DNA of 42,040 nt from Thermoflexales bacterium (lineage in GTDB: Bacteria > Chloroflexota > Anaerolineae > B4-G1 > DUEL01), in the NCBI GenBank assembly GCA_014360895.1, contig JACIWQ010000016.1:1-42040 (forward strand). Reading direction: 5' to 3'. How positions within the stretch are numbered: the first letter of the stretch is position 1; each line of letters opens with the position of its first letter. The notes under the pieces are model-generated. The model was not told the origin of the DNA. It did no database searches and saw only the letters and a list, made by a program, of their open reading frames with translations. The translations under genes were made by a program, and so were the position numbers. Below, in pieces: positions 26,004 to 33,158 of the stretch.

Positions 26004-26043
26004 GGAACGTGCCAGGCACTTCCGGAAGTACCTGGCACGTTCC
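26004..26043. repeat. 40-bp palindrome GGAACGTGCCAGG...CCTGGCACGTTCC
   Basis: Two 20-nt halves are reverse complements with one mismatch. It lies between the cmr5-like gene and miaA, four bases from the miaA start. It belongs to the same style of element as the GGTGACAGTCACC palindromes but to a different sequence family; only one copy is seen here. Confidence 0.9.
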
Positions 26044-26052
26044 GTTATCCTA

Positions 26053-26481
26053 CTACCCTACTGTCCGGGCGTGGAAGCGCACGTAGGTCAGGGTGCGGTT
26101 GATCAGTTCCTTCGCCAGAAAGAGGGCCTGAAGGTCCCGGGCCAGCGCCTGTCCGACGGCGATGGTATCTTTGGCCCCCTGGAGCGGAAGCCCAATCGCA
26201 TCCAGCCGCAGCAGGCTGGGCTGTCCCTCTTCGCCGACCAGCAGCGTATCTATCCGGGCCGCAATTTTTCGCTCCGTAGGCGTCCCGCTGTACCGCTTCC
26301 AGAGGACGTACAGGAAGTAGGCGTAGAGGCCGTTCACGTGCAGGATGTTCAGAAATTTGGAAAGGGTGTGCATAATTTCTTCCCCGCTCACCCGGTCCTC
26401 TACCCTCAGGCCGTCCACGATGCGGCGGGCATAATCGGCGCAGTAAAAATCCAGGTTCTCTACCGTCTGTTGAACGCCCAT
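26053..26481 (-). CDS. Cmr5-like small helical subunit of type III RAMP complex
   Basis: 142 residues, ATG 26481 with AAGGAGG five nt upstream, 24 nt after the cmr4 stop. It is wholly helical by inspection. The segment TLSKFLNILHVNGLYAYFLYVLWKRY matches the Cmr5 pattern (a helix with an NGL turn and a following aliphatic helix), and the C-terminal INRTLTYVRFHARTV matches the Cmr5 end helix. Cmr5 forms the inner filament of small subunits in type III-B complexes. Csm2 is the alternative; the call rests on weak similarity plus position next to cmr4. Confidence 0.65.
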   Translation of the reverse strand: MGVQQTVENLDFYCADYARRIVDGLRVEDRVSGEEIMHTLSKFLNILHVNGLYAYFLYVLWKRYSGTPTERKIAARIDTLLVGEEGQPSLLRLDAIGLPLQGAKDTIAVGQALARDLQALFLAKELINRTLTYVRFHARTVG

Positions 26482-26505
26482 CGTTCCCTCCTTACCCCCG
26501 ACTCC

Positions 26506-27507
26506 CTACTTCACGACTTCCAGGTTCAGCACCCGTAGCCGCCCCATCCCCCGGCTGTTCTTGCCGCCGATGCCCAGGTATTCAATGTAGTGCAGTCCTT
26601 TTTCCACCTGAGTTTGTACCCAGGCAATATCCTGGGGGATCGGTTGACCGTCCAGCAGGAAATCGCGCGGGTTTTTGTAGACAACCTGGAAGGAGAACAG
26701 GGTGGTTCTCGGAATGGCCTCGTAGGTGTAGAGCGCGCCGGAGAGCGCCGCGCCGGTGGAGCGGTCAATGGCCGTGGAGGTGCGCACCTCCAGATTATTG
26801 TTGACCACCTGGGCGAAGAGTTCATCCGGCACCAGCACCAGCCGGTTGAGGATTTCTTCCGGCACGTTCGCGGCTTTCAGGCGGGCCACTCCCGAAGGGG
26901 TCAGCGGGGAAGTGGGGACGGCGACCGGCAGCAGGAGCCACCCCAGATTCAGCCGACGGCTGCGCAGGCCCGTCTGCAGGCGGAAACCGTGCTCCGGCTT
27001 CAACCCGATGTCCACGTCCTCCGCCTCCAGCGCGCCCGATTGCACCAGTTCCCGCAATCGCTCCGGCGCGGTCACCCAGACCGGGCCCAGCATGGAGGGG
27101 ACAGGGAAGAAAAGGGGAAACGCGTCAAAGGTCTGAACCATGCTGGGGGAGGTACGGCCCCCGGGCTGGATAAAGCCGTAGGTGATGCAGACGGGGCAAT
27201 CCACCCGACCGCAGGCGCCGTCTCTCTGACCGGTAGGTCCGGTCTGGTCGGCGCAACTGGCGTAACCGACCACCCCTGGCTTCACCTCTACCGGTCGGCG
27301 GTATTTCTCCGGGTAGTGCATGGCAGTGTAGGTGCGGGCGACGCCGGCCAGGCTAGTGGCCGGAATTTTGGGCAGGTTGCTGGCCGCATCCCGGATGATG
27401 GGGTTATCCACCCGGCCCATCTGCATCTCCCCGCTACCGATGTGGACCGGGTCCAGGGCCAGCGCGTAGTACGTCTTTCGCAGGTACGGCATGCTGATTT
27501 CGGCCAT
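26506..27507 (-). CDS. cmr4: Cmr4-like Cas7-family RAMP (backbone, predicted RNase)
   Basis: 333 residues from ATG 27507 (GAGGAGAGAGACA upstream). The N-terminus PVHIGSGEMQMGRVDNPIIRD...LPKIPATSLAGVART corresponds to the Cmr4 start, with D34 (VDNPIIRD) at the place of the Asp that cleaves target RNA. Cysteines C85, C99, C104 and C107 (CPVCITYGF) form a zinc-knuckle-like group. The glycine-rich loop IGGKNSRGMGRL near the C-terminus is typical of RAMPs. It lies 14 nt after the RAMP gene. As Cas7 it should form the helical filament along a crRNA. Confidence 0.85.
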   Translation of the reverse strand: MAEISMPYLRKTYYALALDPVHIGSGEMQMGRVDNPIIRDAASNLPKIPATSLAGVARTYTAMHYPEKYRRPVEVKPGVVGYASCADQTGPTGQRDGACGRVDCPVCITYGFIQPGGRTSPSMVQTFDAFPLFFPVPSMLGPVWVTAPERLRELVQSGALEAEDVDIGLKPEHGFRLQTGLRSRRLNLGWLLLPVAVPTSPLTPSGVARLKAANVPEEILNRLVLVPDELFAQVVNNNLEVRTSTAIDRSTGAALSGALYTYEAIPRTTLFSFQVVYKNPRDFLLDGQPIPQDIAWVQTQVEKGLHYIEYLGIGGKNSRGMGRLRVLNLEVVK

Positions 27508-27521
27508 TGTCTCTCTCCTCG

Positions 27522-28604
27522 TCACGCGGGGATACCCAGCAGTAAATCCAGGGCGTCGGTGAGGGCAACCAGTGTGGCGAAGGTCCGCCGACCGACGTCC
27601 TTGATTGCCACCACACCCTCCGGCTCATCCACCCCGGAAACCTTCAGATGAGCCTGGCCGAAGCCGCGACTGCTCTTAGCAGAGAAGCCGTGAACCCGCA
27701 TCATCATCACGATGGCTTCCGCCAGGGTCCGCAGGTCCTCCCGGACCTCCGGCATCGCCTCTTCCGGCGACCGATCCATCAGGTCAAAAGGCAAATAGAG
27801 GACGGTGAAAACGCCGGATGCGCCGGGCGGGACGGTCTCCAGCAGGATGGGCACTGTCCCGGAGCGGGTCTTACGGCTGTGGGGGTTAATGACCTCCAGA
27901 CCGATGCGGTCAAAGAAGGTGGGATAAAAGCGCATCCGCCCCAGTATGTTCCCCTCTTCGGCCAGTTCTTCCTCCTCGTCCCGCGCCTGTCCGAAGAGGC
28001 GGATGAGGATGGGTGATGCTTCTCCCTCCGGCAACTGACGGGCGAGGACGGAGCGCAGAACCCCCTTCCAGGTGCTGGCCCGCAGCATAGGGACCTTGAA
28101 GACGCTGTCTTTCATCAGCGGGTTTTCGTGGATGTAGAACTCGTCGTCGTCCCGGCTGTAGACGGGGCGGGCAAGGGTGAAGCGGAACTGGATGTAGGCC
28201 GAATAGGGGGGCAGGTCCTGAAGGTTGACCTGGGGTGGGTAGATGCCCAGCTGGGCCAGTTGCTCCAGGCCAGGGCGTATGACCCCTTCGGTGTAGGGCG
28301 GGTCGCCTTTGCGCCGATACACCAGTCCTTTATACCCGCCGCCGAAGCGGGGATGGCCGCTGCGGGCGAATTCTTTGACGTCGCTGGTCAGCCCCTGGGC
28401 CAGCAGGGAGACTTTGGCATAGGGCCAGACCAGTTCCCGGTACGGCTCCTTATGGTCGCCGACGATGCGGCGGACGTCGTCCTGGGTCTCGCAGGGGTAG
28501 GCGGCGTAGAAGTCGTAAGGCGGCCGCCGCTCCCCCGGCGCCGGGGCCAGATTCCCCCCTCCCCGGGGCGGGGGGCCAGATGTGGGTCGCGGTTTAGAGT
28601 TCAC
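27522..28604 (-). CDS. RAMP-superfamily protein of Cmr-like operon, subtype unclear
   Basis: 360 residues, GTG 28604 with GGAGG six nt upstream. The start overlaps the end of cmr1 by 11 nt. Residues 1-30 are Pro/Gly-rich and probably disordered. RAMP features are RFTLARPVYSRDDDEFY (about 141-157), VFKVPMLRASTWKGVLRSV (168-186, the equivalent of the P-x-S-S-L-K-G-x-L-R motif) and a glycine-rich GFSAKSSRGFGQAHLK (306-321). It does not look like a typical Cmr3 or Cmr6, and it lacks Cas10 HD or palm motifs. It may replace one or both of those RAMPs. The role is unknown beyond the fold. Confidence 0.78.
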   Translation of the reverse strand: MNSKPRPTSGPPPRGGGNLAPAPGERRPPYDFYAAYPCETQDDVRRIVGDHKEPYRELVWPYAKVSLLAQGLTSDVKEFARSGHPRFGGGYKGLVYRRKGDPPYTEGVIRPGLEQLAQLGIYPPQVNLQDLPPYSAYIQFRFTLARPVYSRDDDEFYIHENPLMKDSVFKVPMLRASTWKGVLRSVLARQLPEGEASPILIRLFGQARDEEEELAEEGNILGRMRFYPTFFDRIGLEVINPHSRKTRSGTVPILLETVPPGASGVFTVLYLPFDLMDRSPEEAMPEVREDLRTLAEAIVMMMRVHGFSAKSSRGFGQAHLKVSGVDEPEGVVAIKDVGRRTFATLVALTDALDLLLGIPA

Positions 28605-29472
28605 CGAGCACCTCCTCTCCGGTTCGGGTGTCCGAAACCCCCAGCCGCTGGAGGGTCGCCAGGACCTTCTCCAGCATCTCCCGGTCCCGGGCGTACCCCC
28701 AGAACCGGTGAACAGTCTGGAAGGAGAAGACCTTTTTGCTCACGCCGCGCCGTCCGCTGAGGAAGCCCGAGGGGTCAGAGCGGACCAGTTCGTTGACCTG
28801 GCCCAGGTCCAGCCAGCGTTCGGTGTTGAAGAAGAAGAGGCGCAGGTCGGGCCACTCGGGCGGGGCCCGGCGGAGCCGCTCCTGCATGCGGGGAGAATCG
28901 GCCAGGATGTCTGCCAACCAGGCTTGTACGGATTCCCGGGTGACGCCGGTGGGCAGGCGCAACGGCGATGCCAGCGCGACCAGGCCGTAATCCGGTTGGG
29001 GGGGCTTGAGGGTGGTCTTGCCGCCCAGAGAGCCGTAGCGGGCAATGAGCCAGAGAGCTTTCGCCAGGAGCCAGCGCTCCTCCGGCTCGGTGGGCTTGAT
29101 CTCCACGAAGTTCATCACGAAGGAGACCCCGGGCTGGCTGAGGTTGACTTCGTAGCCGCCCTCGCCGTCGGTGAGCAGGAGGCGGAGTTTGCTACTCCAG
29201 CCGGTGCAGCCGAAGAGCCGACACGCCGGGCAGACGTCCCGCAGTCCGTCCTCTACCTGTCCGGTCCGCCCGTAGGCCGTCTCGTCAAAGGCGCAGCGGT
29301 CGTCTCCGGCGGGGTCGCAGGCGTAGCCGCCGAGCCCGCGCATCAGCGCCTCCGTCCACCAGCGGACGGAACCCATCAGGCTGGTCTCTTTGGCCTGGTC
29401 GGAGGTCCGGTCCACATCGCCGGTCCAGATAGGGGCCAACGTGCGCAGGTTCACGGCAATCGTTCGGGGCAT
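28594..29472 (-). CDS. cmr1: Cmr1-like RAMP protein
   Basis: 292 residues from ATG 29472, with AAAGGAG six nt upstream. Cmr1 hallmarks: LRTLAPIWTGDVDR, ETSLMGSVRWWTEALMRGLGGYACDP (ligand/RNA-facing first RAMP repeat), cysteines C52, C60, C81, C84, C89 including CPACRLFGCTGWSSKLRL, and a helical C-terminal half. Cmr1 caps the type III-B filament near the target 3' end side. It is the first gene of a four-gene operon behind a strong promoter. Neither cas10 (cmr2) nor cmr3 follows. Confidence 0.9.
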   Translation of the reverse strand: MPRTIAVNLRTLAPIWTGDVDRTSDQAKETSLMGSVRWWTEALMRGLGGYACDPAGDDRCAFDETAYGRTGQVEDGLRDVCPACRLFGCTGWSSKLRLLLTDGEGGYEVNLSQPGVSFVMNFVEIKPTEPEERWLLAKALWLIARYGSLGGKTTLKPPQPDYGLVALASPLRLPTGVTRESVQAWLADILADSPRMQERLRRAPPEWPDLRLFFFNTERWLDLGQVNELVRSDPSGFLSGRRGVSKKVFSFQTVHRFWGYARDREMLEKVLATLQRLGVSDTRTGEEVLGEL

Positions 29473-29520
29473 ACAGGACTCCTTTCCGCAAAGGCGCGAA
29501 CCGTCCTGGGGAGCGGTTTC

Positions 29521-29548
29521 TTTATAACACAACTTTCGGTAATGTCAA
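29521..29548 (-). promoter_or_regulatory. Promoter for cmr-like operon
   Basis: On the minus strand TTGACA (29548-29543), a 16-bp spacer and TATAAA (29526-29521). Predicted start near 29514, about 42 nt before the cmr1 ATG. Confidence 0.78.
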
Positions 29549-29657
29549 CCACCGGCGCAGAGGGGTGTGTCCCATTCTCGCCGGGAAGGGGCCGCGCGCC
29601 CCCGCGCCGATTGGAAAGCGGCCTTCCTGGACGCTTCCGGCTTCGCGGCCGCCCAGG

Positions 29658-29789
29658 GTCATTGCGAGCCCGCAGGGCGAAGGGCCACGCCGAGGCTCGC
29701 CCGAGGCGCAATCTCCCTGTCGCTTCTGGGGATTGCCACCACGCTCTGCTCGTGGCAGGCTTTCGGGCACTCCGTGCCCTCGCAATGAC
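29658..29789. repeat. MITE-like element, copy 2
   Basis: The ends GTCATTGCGAG and CGCAATGAC form terminal inverted repeats, with GCAATCTCC and GGATTGC inside. It shares GGCCACGCCGAGGCTCGCC words with copy 3. Apart from this element, the cmr promoter and a hairpin repeat, the gap 29549-29868 shows nothing else. Confidence 0.75.
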
Positions 29790-29826
29790 CTCTTCCGCCG
29801 TAGCGCAGGCTGTCAGCCTGTATTCT

Positions 29827-32545: not shown

Positions 32546-32827
32546 TTACCATTCCGTAGTCGGAACTTCCTGCTCTACGAGTTGGGGCTCATAGGAAAGA
32601 ATCAGCACCTCAGCCCGTAAATGACGGAGCGGTTTCAACATCTCTATCATCCGGTCTGTCACTGGGCCCGTCATGTATGGTTCATGGCAACTGGAGCAGA
32701 TTTCGGCCGGGACGTTCTTAATCAATACGACGGCATCGGAAAATAGAAACGGCACGGTCGCCAGCCCTGGCTGCAAACGCCCGCCGCACAAAGGACAGCG
32801 GCTATTTCCTGCGAGTTCGCCAGTCAT
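32546..32827 (-). CDS. YgiT-type zinc-finger antitoxin
   Basis: 93 residues. RCPLCGGRLQPG and ICSSCHEPYMTGPVTDRMIEMLK match the N-terminal zinc domain of MqsA/YgiT antitoxins (two CxxC pairs). A short C-terminal extension replaces the HTH domain of full MqsA. The start lies 26 nt inside the DUF4258 gene, so the two are coupled with toxin first. Confidence 0.82.
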   Translation of the reverse strand: MTGELAGNSRCPLCGGRLQPGLATVPFLFSDAVVLIKNVPAEICSSCHEPYMTGPVTDRMIEMLKPLRHLRAEVLILSYEPQLVEQEVPTTEW

Positions 32828-33158
32828 TTTCCCACTCCTCCGGAGACGGCCTGTACACCGTCACCACGAATAAGCGGTCATTCTTCTCGTCTATAGCGAT
32901 AACTGCATGAAACGGCTCTCCGGTTGACAGCCACCCAAAAACGAGACAATCTGGCAAAGGACGATGCAAAGCGGGATAATCCTCAATCAACTCGCTGTAC
33001 CGAAGCGCCTCTTCCACCAGGATCCGATCCCACCCTTCATTCACCAGTTCTGTGATGGCATGGCGGGACCAGTATATCCGGGCTCCTTCGGGGTCTGACC
33101 GGTTCTGCTCCGCTTTCCAGCGGATGAAAGCCTGCTTTTGCTCTGCCTTCATCGCCAT
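32802..33158 (-). CDS. DUF4258 family toxin-like protein
   Basis: 118 residues from ATG 33158 (ATG 33152 is the alternative; neither has a good Shine-Dalgarno sequence). IYWSRHAITELVNEGWDRILVEEALRYSELIEDYPALHRPLPDCLVFGWLSTGEPFHAVIAIDEKNDRLFVVTVYRP is a RelE/BrnT-like fold of the DUF4258 family, commonly paired with YgiT-type antitoxins. Expected action is RNA cleavage, by family inference. An extended -10 promoter precedes it. Confidence 0.82.
   Translation of the reverse strand: MAMKAEQKQAFIRWKAEQNRSDPEGARIYWSRHAITELVNEGWDRILVEEALRYSELIEDYPALHRPLPDCLVFGWLSTGEPFHAVIAIDEKNDRLFVVTVYRPSPEEWENDWRTRRK

Follow-up and report, generated by a model that had tools for sequence, protein, structure and literature searches.

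Cas10 is the defining component of type III systems. In III-B complexes, Cmr4 and Cmr5 form the backbone, with Cmr4 cutting the target RNA every 6 nt, an activity abolished by the Cmr4 substitution D26N, while Cmr3 contacts the 5′ tag of the crRNA and Cmr1 and Cmr6 contact its 3′ end (PMC7192623). III-E (Cas7-11/gRAMP) is a type III descendant that has lost Cas10 and cuts RNA only (PMC8730458). The 2025 classification includes III-C systems whose Cas10 is inactivated and counts HRAMP and ARAMP among array-less derivatives (PMC12669027); its main text, supplementary lists aside, contains none of the phrases for loss of Cas10 that were looked for, and prior notice is possible. In type IV-B, which has no array, the complex forms on heterogeneous, non-CRISPR RNA (PMC7937560).

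The operon described here lies in a window of 42,040 nucleotides, the whole stretch of DNA that was analysed, which is the entire 42-kb contig C68 of a 3.57-Mb genome that is 96% complete. With III-C (cmr1-cmr6-cas10c/csx11-cmr4-cmr5-cmr3), its direct ancestor in our tree, it shares the Cmr1, Cmr6 (with an N-terminal extension), Cmr4 and Cmr5 families and their order; unlike III-C, it has no cas10, cmr3, linked cas6, adaptation genes or array, and is conserved in this form in eight genomes. As in type IV-B (Csf), the Cas7/Cas11 filament genes are kept and the array and processing genes are missing, but IV-B retains Csf1 and Cas5 (Csf3), has no RNase aspartate of the Cmr4 kind and does not descend from III-C, and none of the four operon proteins had a Csf match in PADLOC. 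HRAMP and ARAMP are likewise array-less and derived from type III Cas5/Cas7 proteins (PMC12669027, PMC8730458), but they are archaeal, highly diverged and usually accompanied by added HNH or PD-(D/E)xK nucleases, whereas the operon itself encodes four recognisable Cmr proteins only. III-E consists of one fused protein, which itself processes its crRNA, in contrast to the four separate ORFs of III-C origin seen here. As a multi-subunit type III descendant that lacks Cas10 and the 5′-tag reader yet is under strong selection in several families, the operon would provide a natural test of the bare Cas7/Cas11 core; it would also be a bacterial counterpart of IV-B and HRAMP in which to study the reuse of CRISPR parts.

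Genes and surroundings of the operon

The features of the operon, in window coordinates, are as follows.

29521..29548, minus strand: promoter TTGACA-N16-TATAAA upstream of cmr1, read in the sequence
28594..29472, minus strand: cmr1, Cas7-like, predicted 3′-end cap (PADLOC 3.9e-12; NCBIfam TIGR01894 1.8e-13)
27522..28604, minus strand: cmr6 of III-C type with an N-terminal extension (PADLOC PDLC00988 8.8e-67)
26506..27507, minus strand: cmr4, predicted Cas7 backbone RNase (PADLOC 1.2e-41; TIGR02580 1.1e-30)
26053..26481, minus strand: cmr5, Cas11 small subunit (PADLOC Cmr5 6.4e-19)

The order cmr1-cmr6-cmr4-cmr5 runs from 29472 to 26053 and is tightly packed, with an overlap of 11 bp between cmr1 and cmr6 and gaps of 14 and 24 bp between the remaining genes. 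The ORFs, the gaps and the promoter position bear out the first-pass annotation, which had described a tight four-gene operon behind this promoter; the operons on four orthologous contigs (L012-L015) have similar promoters at matching places, and the sequence farther upstream differs. Its calls of cmr1 and of a cmr5-like gene also hold, and the NCBIfam models for Cmr4 and Cmr1 both score over the cut-off. The gene that it had set down as an atypical RAMP, reporting a typical cmr6 as missing, is instead a Cmr6 of the III-C type; the Cmr6 of a cas10-bearing III-C locus (L070) matches the same PADLOC model (9e-87) and has a similar N-terminal part. No cas10, cmr3, cas6, cas1 or CRISPR array was found anywhere on the contig, as had been claimed for the window.

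A guide-RNA gene beside the operon was considered and rejected: the window has no Rfam match, and there is no downstream space for such a gene in L012 and L014, where miaA is abutted or overlapped by cmr5. The operon had also been described as bounded by a palindrome and a MITE-like element, as a moved module might be. Both elements exist (palindrome at 26005-26043, MITE-like element at 29656-29790), and the site is empty in a sister species (G077), where the radical SAM and miaA genes lie just ~73 bp apart, but partial or full copies of both occur in other contigs and near 37.3 kb of the window, and the orthologous operons have neither. These are dispersed repeats, not borders, and the idea of a mobile module bordered by them was rejected. 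Elsewhere in the window (32546-33158, minus strand), adjacent genes for a YgiT/MqsA-finger protein and a DUF4258 protein likely form a toxin-antitoxin pair.

Conservation and descent from III-C

When the same four-gene order without cas10 was sought in other genomes, a check proposed with the first-pass annotation, it was present in seven, also without cmr3. The resulting eight carriers (the own genome; G365, G259, G390 and G370, whose contigs, by length and coordinates, are L012-L015; G012, G161 and G221) span four families and four genomic contexts among 396 genomes of the class, in which the remaining Cmr6 matches score far lower. Judged by this operon, the closest relatives with names are MAGs, one of Thermoflexus and others of Anaerolineae/Chloroflexi, and the host is presumably a Thermoflexus-like member of Chloroflexota. 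Across 400 genomes of the phylum, matches besides the window reached at most ~240 bits, the range of cas10-bearing loci, as judged by scores and not by flanks. Viral contigs held no relative, and plasmids only three distant Cmr6 matches.

Identity among the operon orthologues is 44-96% (50-92% for cmr1, 52-96% for cmr5), dN/dS is 0.02-0.26 wherever computable and low for all four genes, and the ORFs are intact in every carrier. Judging from these sequences, purifying selection maintains the operon in Anaerolineae-type Chloroflexota. Its neighbours, named by reading, are recN, hydantoinase, miaA and radical SAM genes in the window genus, an aminotransferase gene with rsmD/relA in L015, gapA in G012 and another gene set in G161 and G221. 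No fifth gene was seen to be shared across the four contexts (neighbours by reading, part scanned by HMM). A miaA tree did not resolve gain from loss of the operon within the genus. In G012 (L046, 3549-3600) the operon begins ~50 bp past gapA on the same strand and may be co-transcribed with it.

In a tree whose root was assumed to lie inside III-C, the eight stand-alone operons group together as a single clade (100/100) that falls within the cas10-bearing III-C loci. A near relative that serves as outgroup, L070, has the order cmr1-cmr6-Cas10c-cmr4-cmr5-cmr3, and the other nearest relative, L059, has cmr1-cmr6 followed by an ORF that is cas10-sized, its identity being taken from size and not from an HMM. 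The loci inspected in detail, L050, L054, L056, L062, L069 and L070, carry a long ORF between cmr6 and cmr4; an HMM confirmed Cas10c in L070 (4e-185) and likewise at the G012 III-C locus. Since the eight operons form a single clade within cas10-bearing III-C, the simplest account of these sequences is that cas10 and cmr3 were lost once, anciently. Of the recent cas10 deletion that had been raised as a refuting case, the cas10-bearing relatives do exist, but the loss is, by the tree, ancient and single. That the locus is a decaying remnant of III-C seems very improbable: cas10 and cmr3 are indeed gone relative to L070, but eight genomes with intact ORFs, low dN/dS in four genes and one old clade do not fit decay. 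The operon is apparently a conserved, single-origin Cas10-less and Cmr3-less III-C derivative of Chloroflexota. Between the cmr genes of other cas10-type III-C loci, reading pointed to an ATPase-like and a second protein (L049, L053), an AbiEii-like nucleotidyltransferase (L054) and an MNT/HEPN-like pair (L063).

The earlier label of a type III-B-like operon does not stand, the descent being from III-C by the nesting in the III-C tree. Cmr1, Cmr4, Cmr5 and Cmr6 of III-C type are all present. The III-C signature Cas10c/Csx11 is absent from the contig, the type III signature Cas10 is absent from all eight operons, and for the III-C Cmr3 (Cas5) there was no PF09700 match and no RAMP beyond those of the operon and the III-D locus, although PF03787 does recognise a III-C Cmr3. 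As the search for the signature gene came back negative, the operon is placed outside III-C, as a Cas10-less variant derived from it and not a member.

Predicted RNA-cutting core

The first-pass annotation had credited cmr4 with a catalytic aspartate, and the residue is present. Asp34 of Cmr4, in the motif GRVDN, aligns with the catalytic Asp of Pyrococcus furiosus Cmr4 (alignment to 9arw/4rdp), which in the solved Cmr4 sits in a GVVDQ motif and which we infer to be D26 because the numbering of 4rdp and that of 4wnz differ by nine residues. The GRVDN Asp is invariant in all eight carriers, as is the Gly-rich loop, and both are common to the cas10-bearing loci too. A Cas7 backbone that cuts target RNA through a catalytic Asp is a general type III trait; here the Asp is conserved, and cutting would be predicted. 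AlphaFold models of Cmr4 and Cmr6, built from 5-row alignments, had mean pLDDT values of 33 and 43 and were not used.

The operon retains the backbone and 3′ cap along with the nuclease residue and has lost the 5′ cap; the best reading is probably a Cas7/Cas11-only RNase complex without Cas10 or a crRNA-tag reader, that is, an RNA-loaded filament that would cut paired RNA. Cmr4 and Cmr5 would enclose a bound small RNA in a Cas7/Cas11 filament of the usual kind, Cmr6 and Cmr1 would cap its 3′ end, and the conserved Asp of Cmr4 would cut RNA paired to the bound one. Without Cas10, neither a cyclic-nucleotide signal nor DNase activity would be expected. We favour, with a probability of about 0.55, a stand-alone four-subunit III-C derivative from which one ancient event removed Cas10 and Cmr3 and which selection has kept, probably as an RNA-cutting core. 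Against this reading, the III-B subunits studied all belong to one crRNP, and we know of no complex without Cmr2-Cmr3 for which cutting has been demonstrated. The system lends itself to direct tests through its four close orthologues, the empty site of the sister species and a single-residue mutant.

Exaptation to a function other than a nuclease (RNA binding or regulation, for instance) or to a housekeeping task beside the flanking genes would draw on the housekeeping neighbours (recN/miaA/radical SAM, gapA, rsmD/relA) and on the operon proteins being, within the genus, about as conserved as the products of the flanking genes. We regard it as quite improbable: the invariant Asp and Gly-rich loop of Cmr4, shared with cas10-bearing loci, speak against it, and neighbours that differ across the four contexts imply no single pathway.

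CRISPR components elsewhere and the source of the guide

The own genome, searched family by family with profiles, contains III-D/I-A and type IV-like loci with arrays. The III-D set, on contig C113 with I-A genes adjoining, has its own Cas10, Csx10, Csm3-type and Csm2-type subunits; its Cas10 is the sole palm2 match of the genome, its RAMPs are the only PF03787 matches outside the operon, and its Csx10 has weak similarity to Cmr3. There is no csx11. A complete set elsewhere in the genome had been named as a possible refutation; in this genome the array-less operon is not completed by any III-B or III-C Cas10 or Cmr3.

Some Cas10 occurs in six carriers. In G259, G390 and G365 it is III-A-like, G370 has a III-A-like and a second, III-D-like Cas10, and G012 has a separate Cas10 of III-C subtype; besides the stand-alone operon, G365 (L064) and G390 (L063) each have a second locus, of III-C type, in which cmr1-cmr6 comes with csx11 matches. 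Because these Cas10s differ in subtype between carriers, there is no common partner Cas10. The same variety (III-D, III-A, III-C) makes it improbable that the operon is one part of a split type III system, in which it would give the backbone and a different type III locus would lend it Cas10 and a subunit of Cas5 type. The III-D Cas10 and the slightly Cmr3-like Csx10 of the own genome could be such a source, and so could the Cas10s of the other carriers, but that III-D locus already holds a complete RAMP set, and two carriers have no detected Cas10.

A serious rival to the stand-alone reading, if an unlikely one, is that the complex takes up, in trans, ordinary crRNAs made from other arrays of the genome and works as an auxiliary, non-signalling RNA-cutting effector. 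It is serious because most carriers have Cas6 and because the own genome and G259 have arrays, so that crRNAs would be usable in trans: three Cas6 genes and arrays on contigs C215 and C222 are present in the own genome, six of the eight carriers encode Cas6 or Cas1, and the absence of arrays is common at III-B and III-C loci (PMC12669027). A generic array pattern gave hits in no carrier but the own genome and G259, and is too insensitive to prove absence elsewhere. Against loading in trans, the tag-contacting Cmr3 is missing from all eight carriers, no common repeat or Cas6 partner could be established, and the two incomplete genomes G161 and G221 (80% and 74% complete) yielded no Cas1, Cas10, PF10040 Cas6, csx11 or further RAMP. 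A repeat scan of ~1.36 Mb of G221 and G161, weak evidence at so low a coverage, gave only hits that by spacing looked tandem or irregular. Absence of CRISPR from these two genomes is suggested rather than proven, both being incomplete and the search having covered Cas1, Cas10, PF10040 Cas6, csx11 and RAMPs.

Since the tag reader was lost and the operon is kept where no Cas6 or Cas1 was detected, the guides of the favoured stand-alone complex lean towards non-CRISPR RNAs. Without Cmr3 there would be no known 5′-tag-reading subunit, and the guide is probably not restricted to tagged crRNAs; it may be another cellular or invader-derived small RNA, as in the array-less type IV-B filament. We tentatively suggest, as a possibility somewhat short of even, a chromosomal, CRISPR-independent RNA-guided or RNA-templated RNase made from a stripped III-C effector and using non-CRISPR small RNAs, including in CRISPR-free genomes.

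The type IV-like locus of the own genome (L180; C215, 1-8000) has an array, cas1/cas4 and cas6, and encodes Csf3-like, Csf2-like (5.4e-47) and weakly Cas11-like proteins, together with a putative large subunit of at least 447 aa that matches no family.
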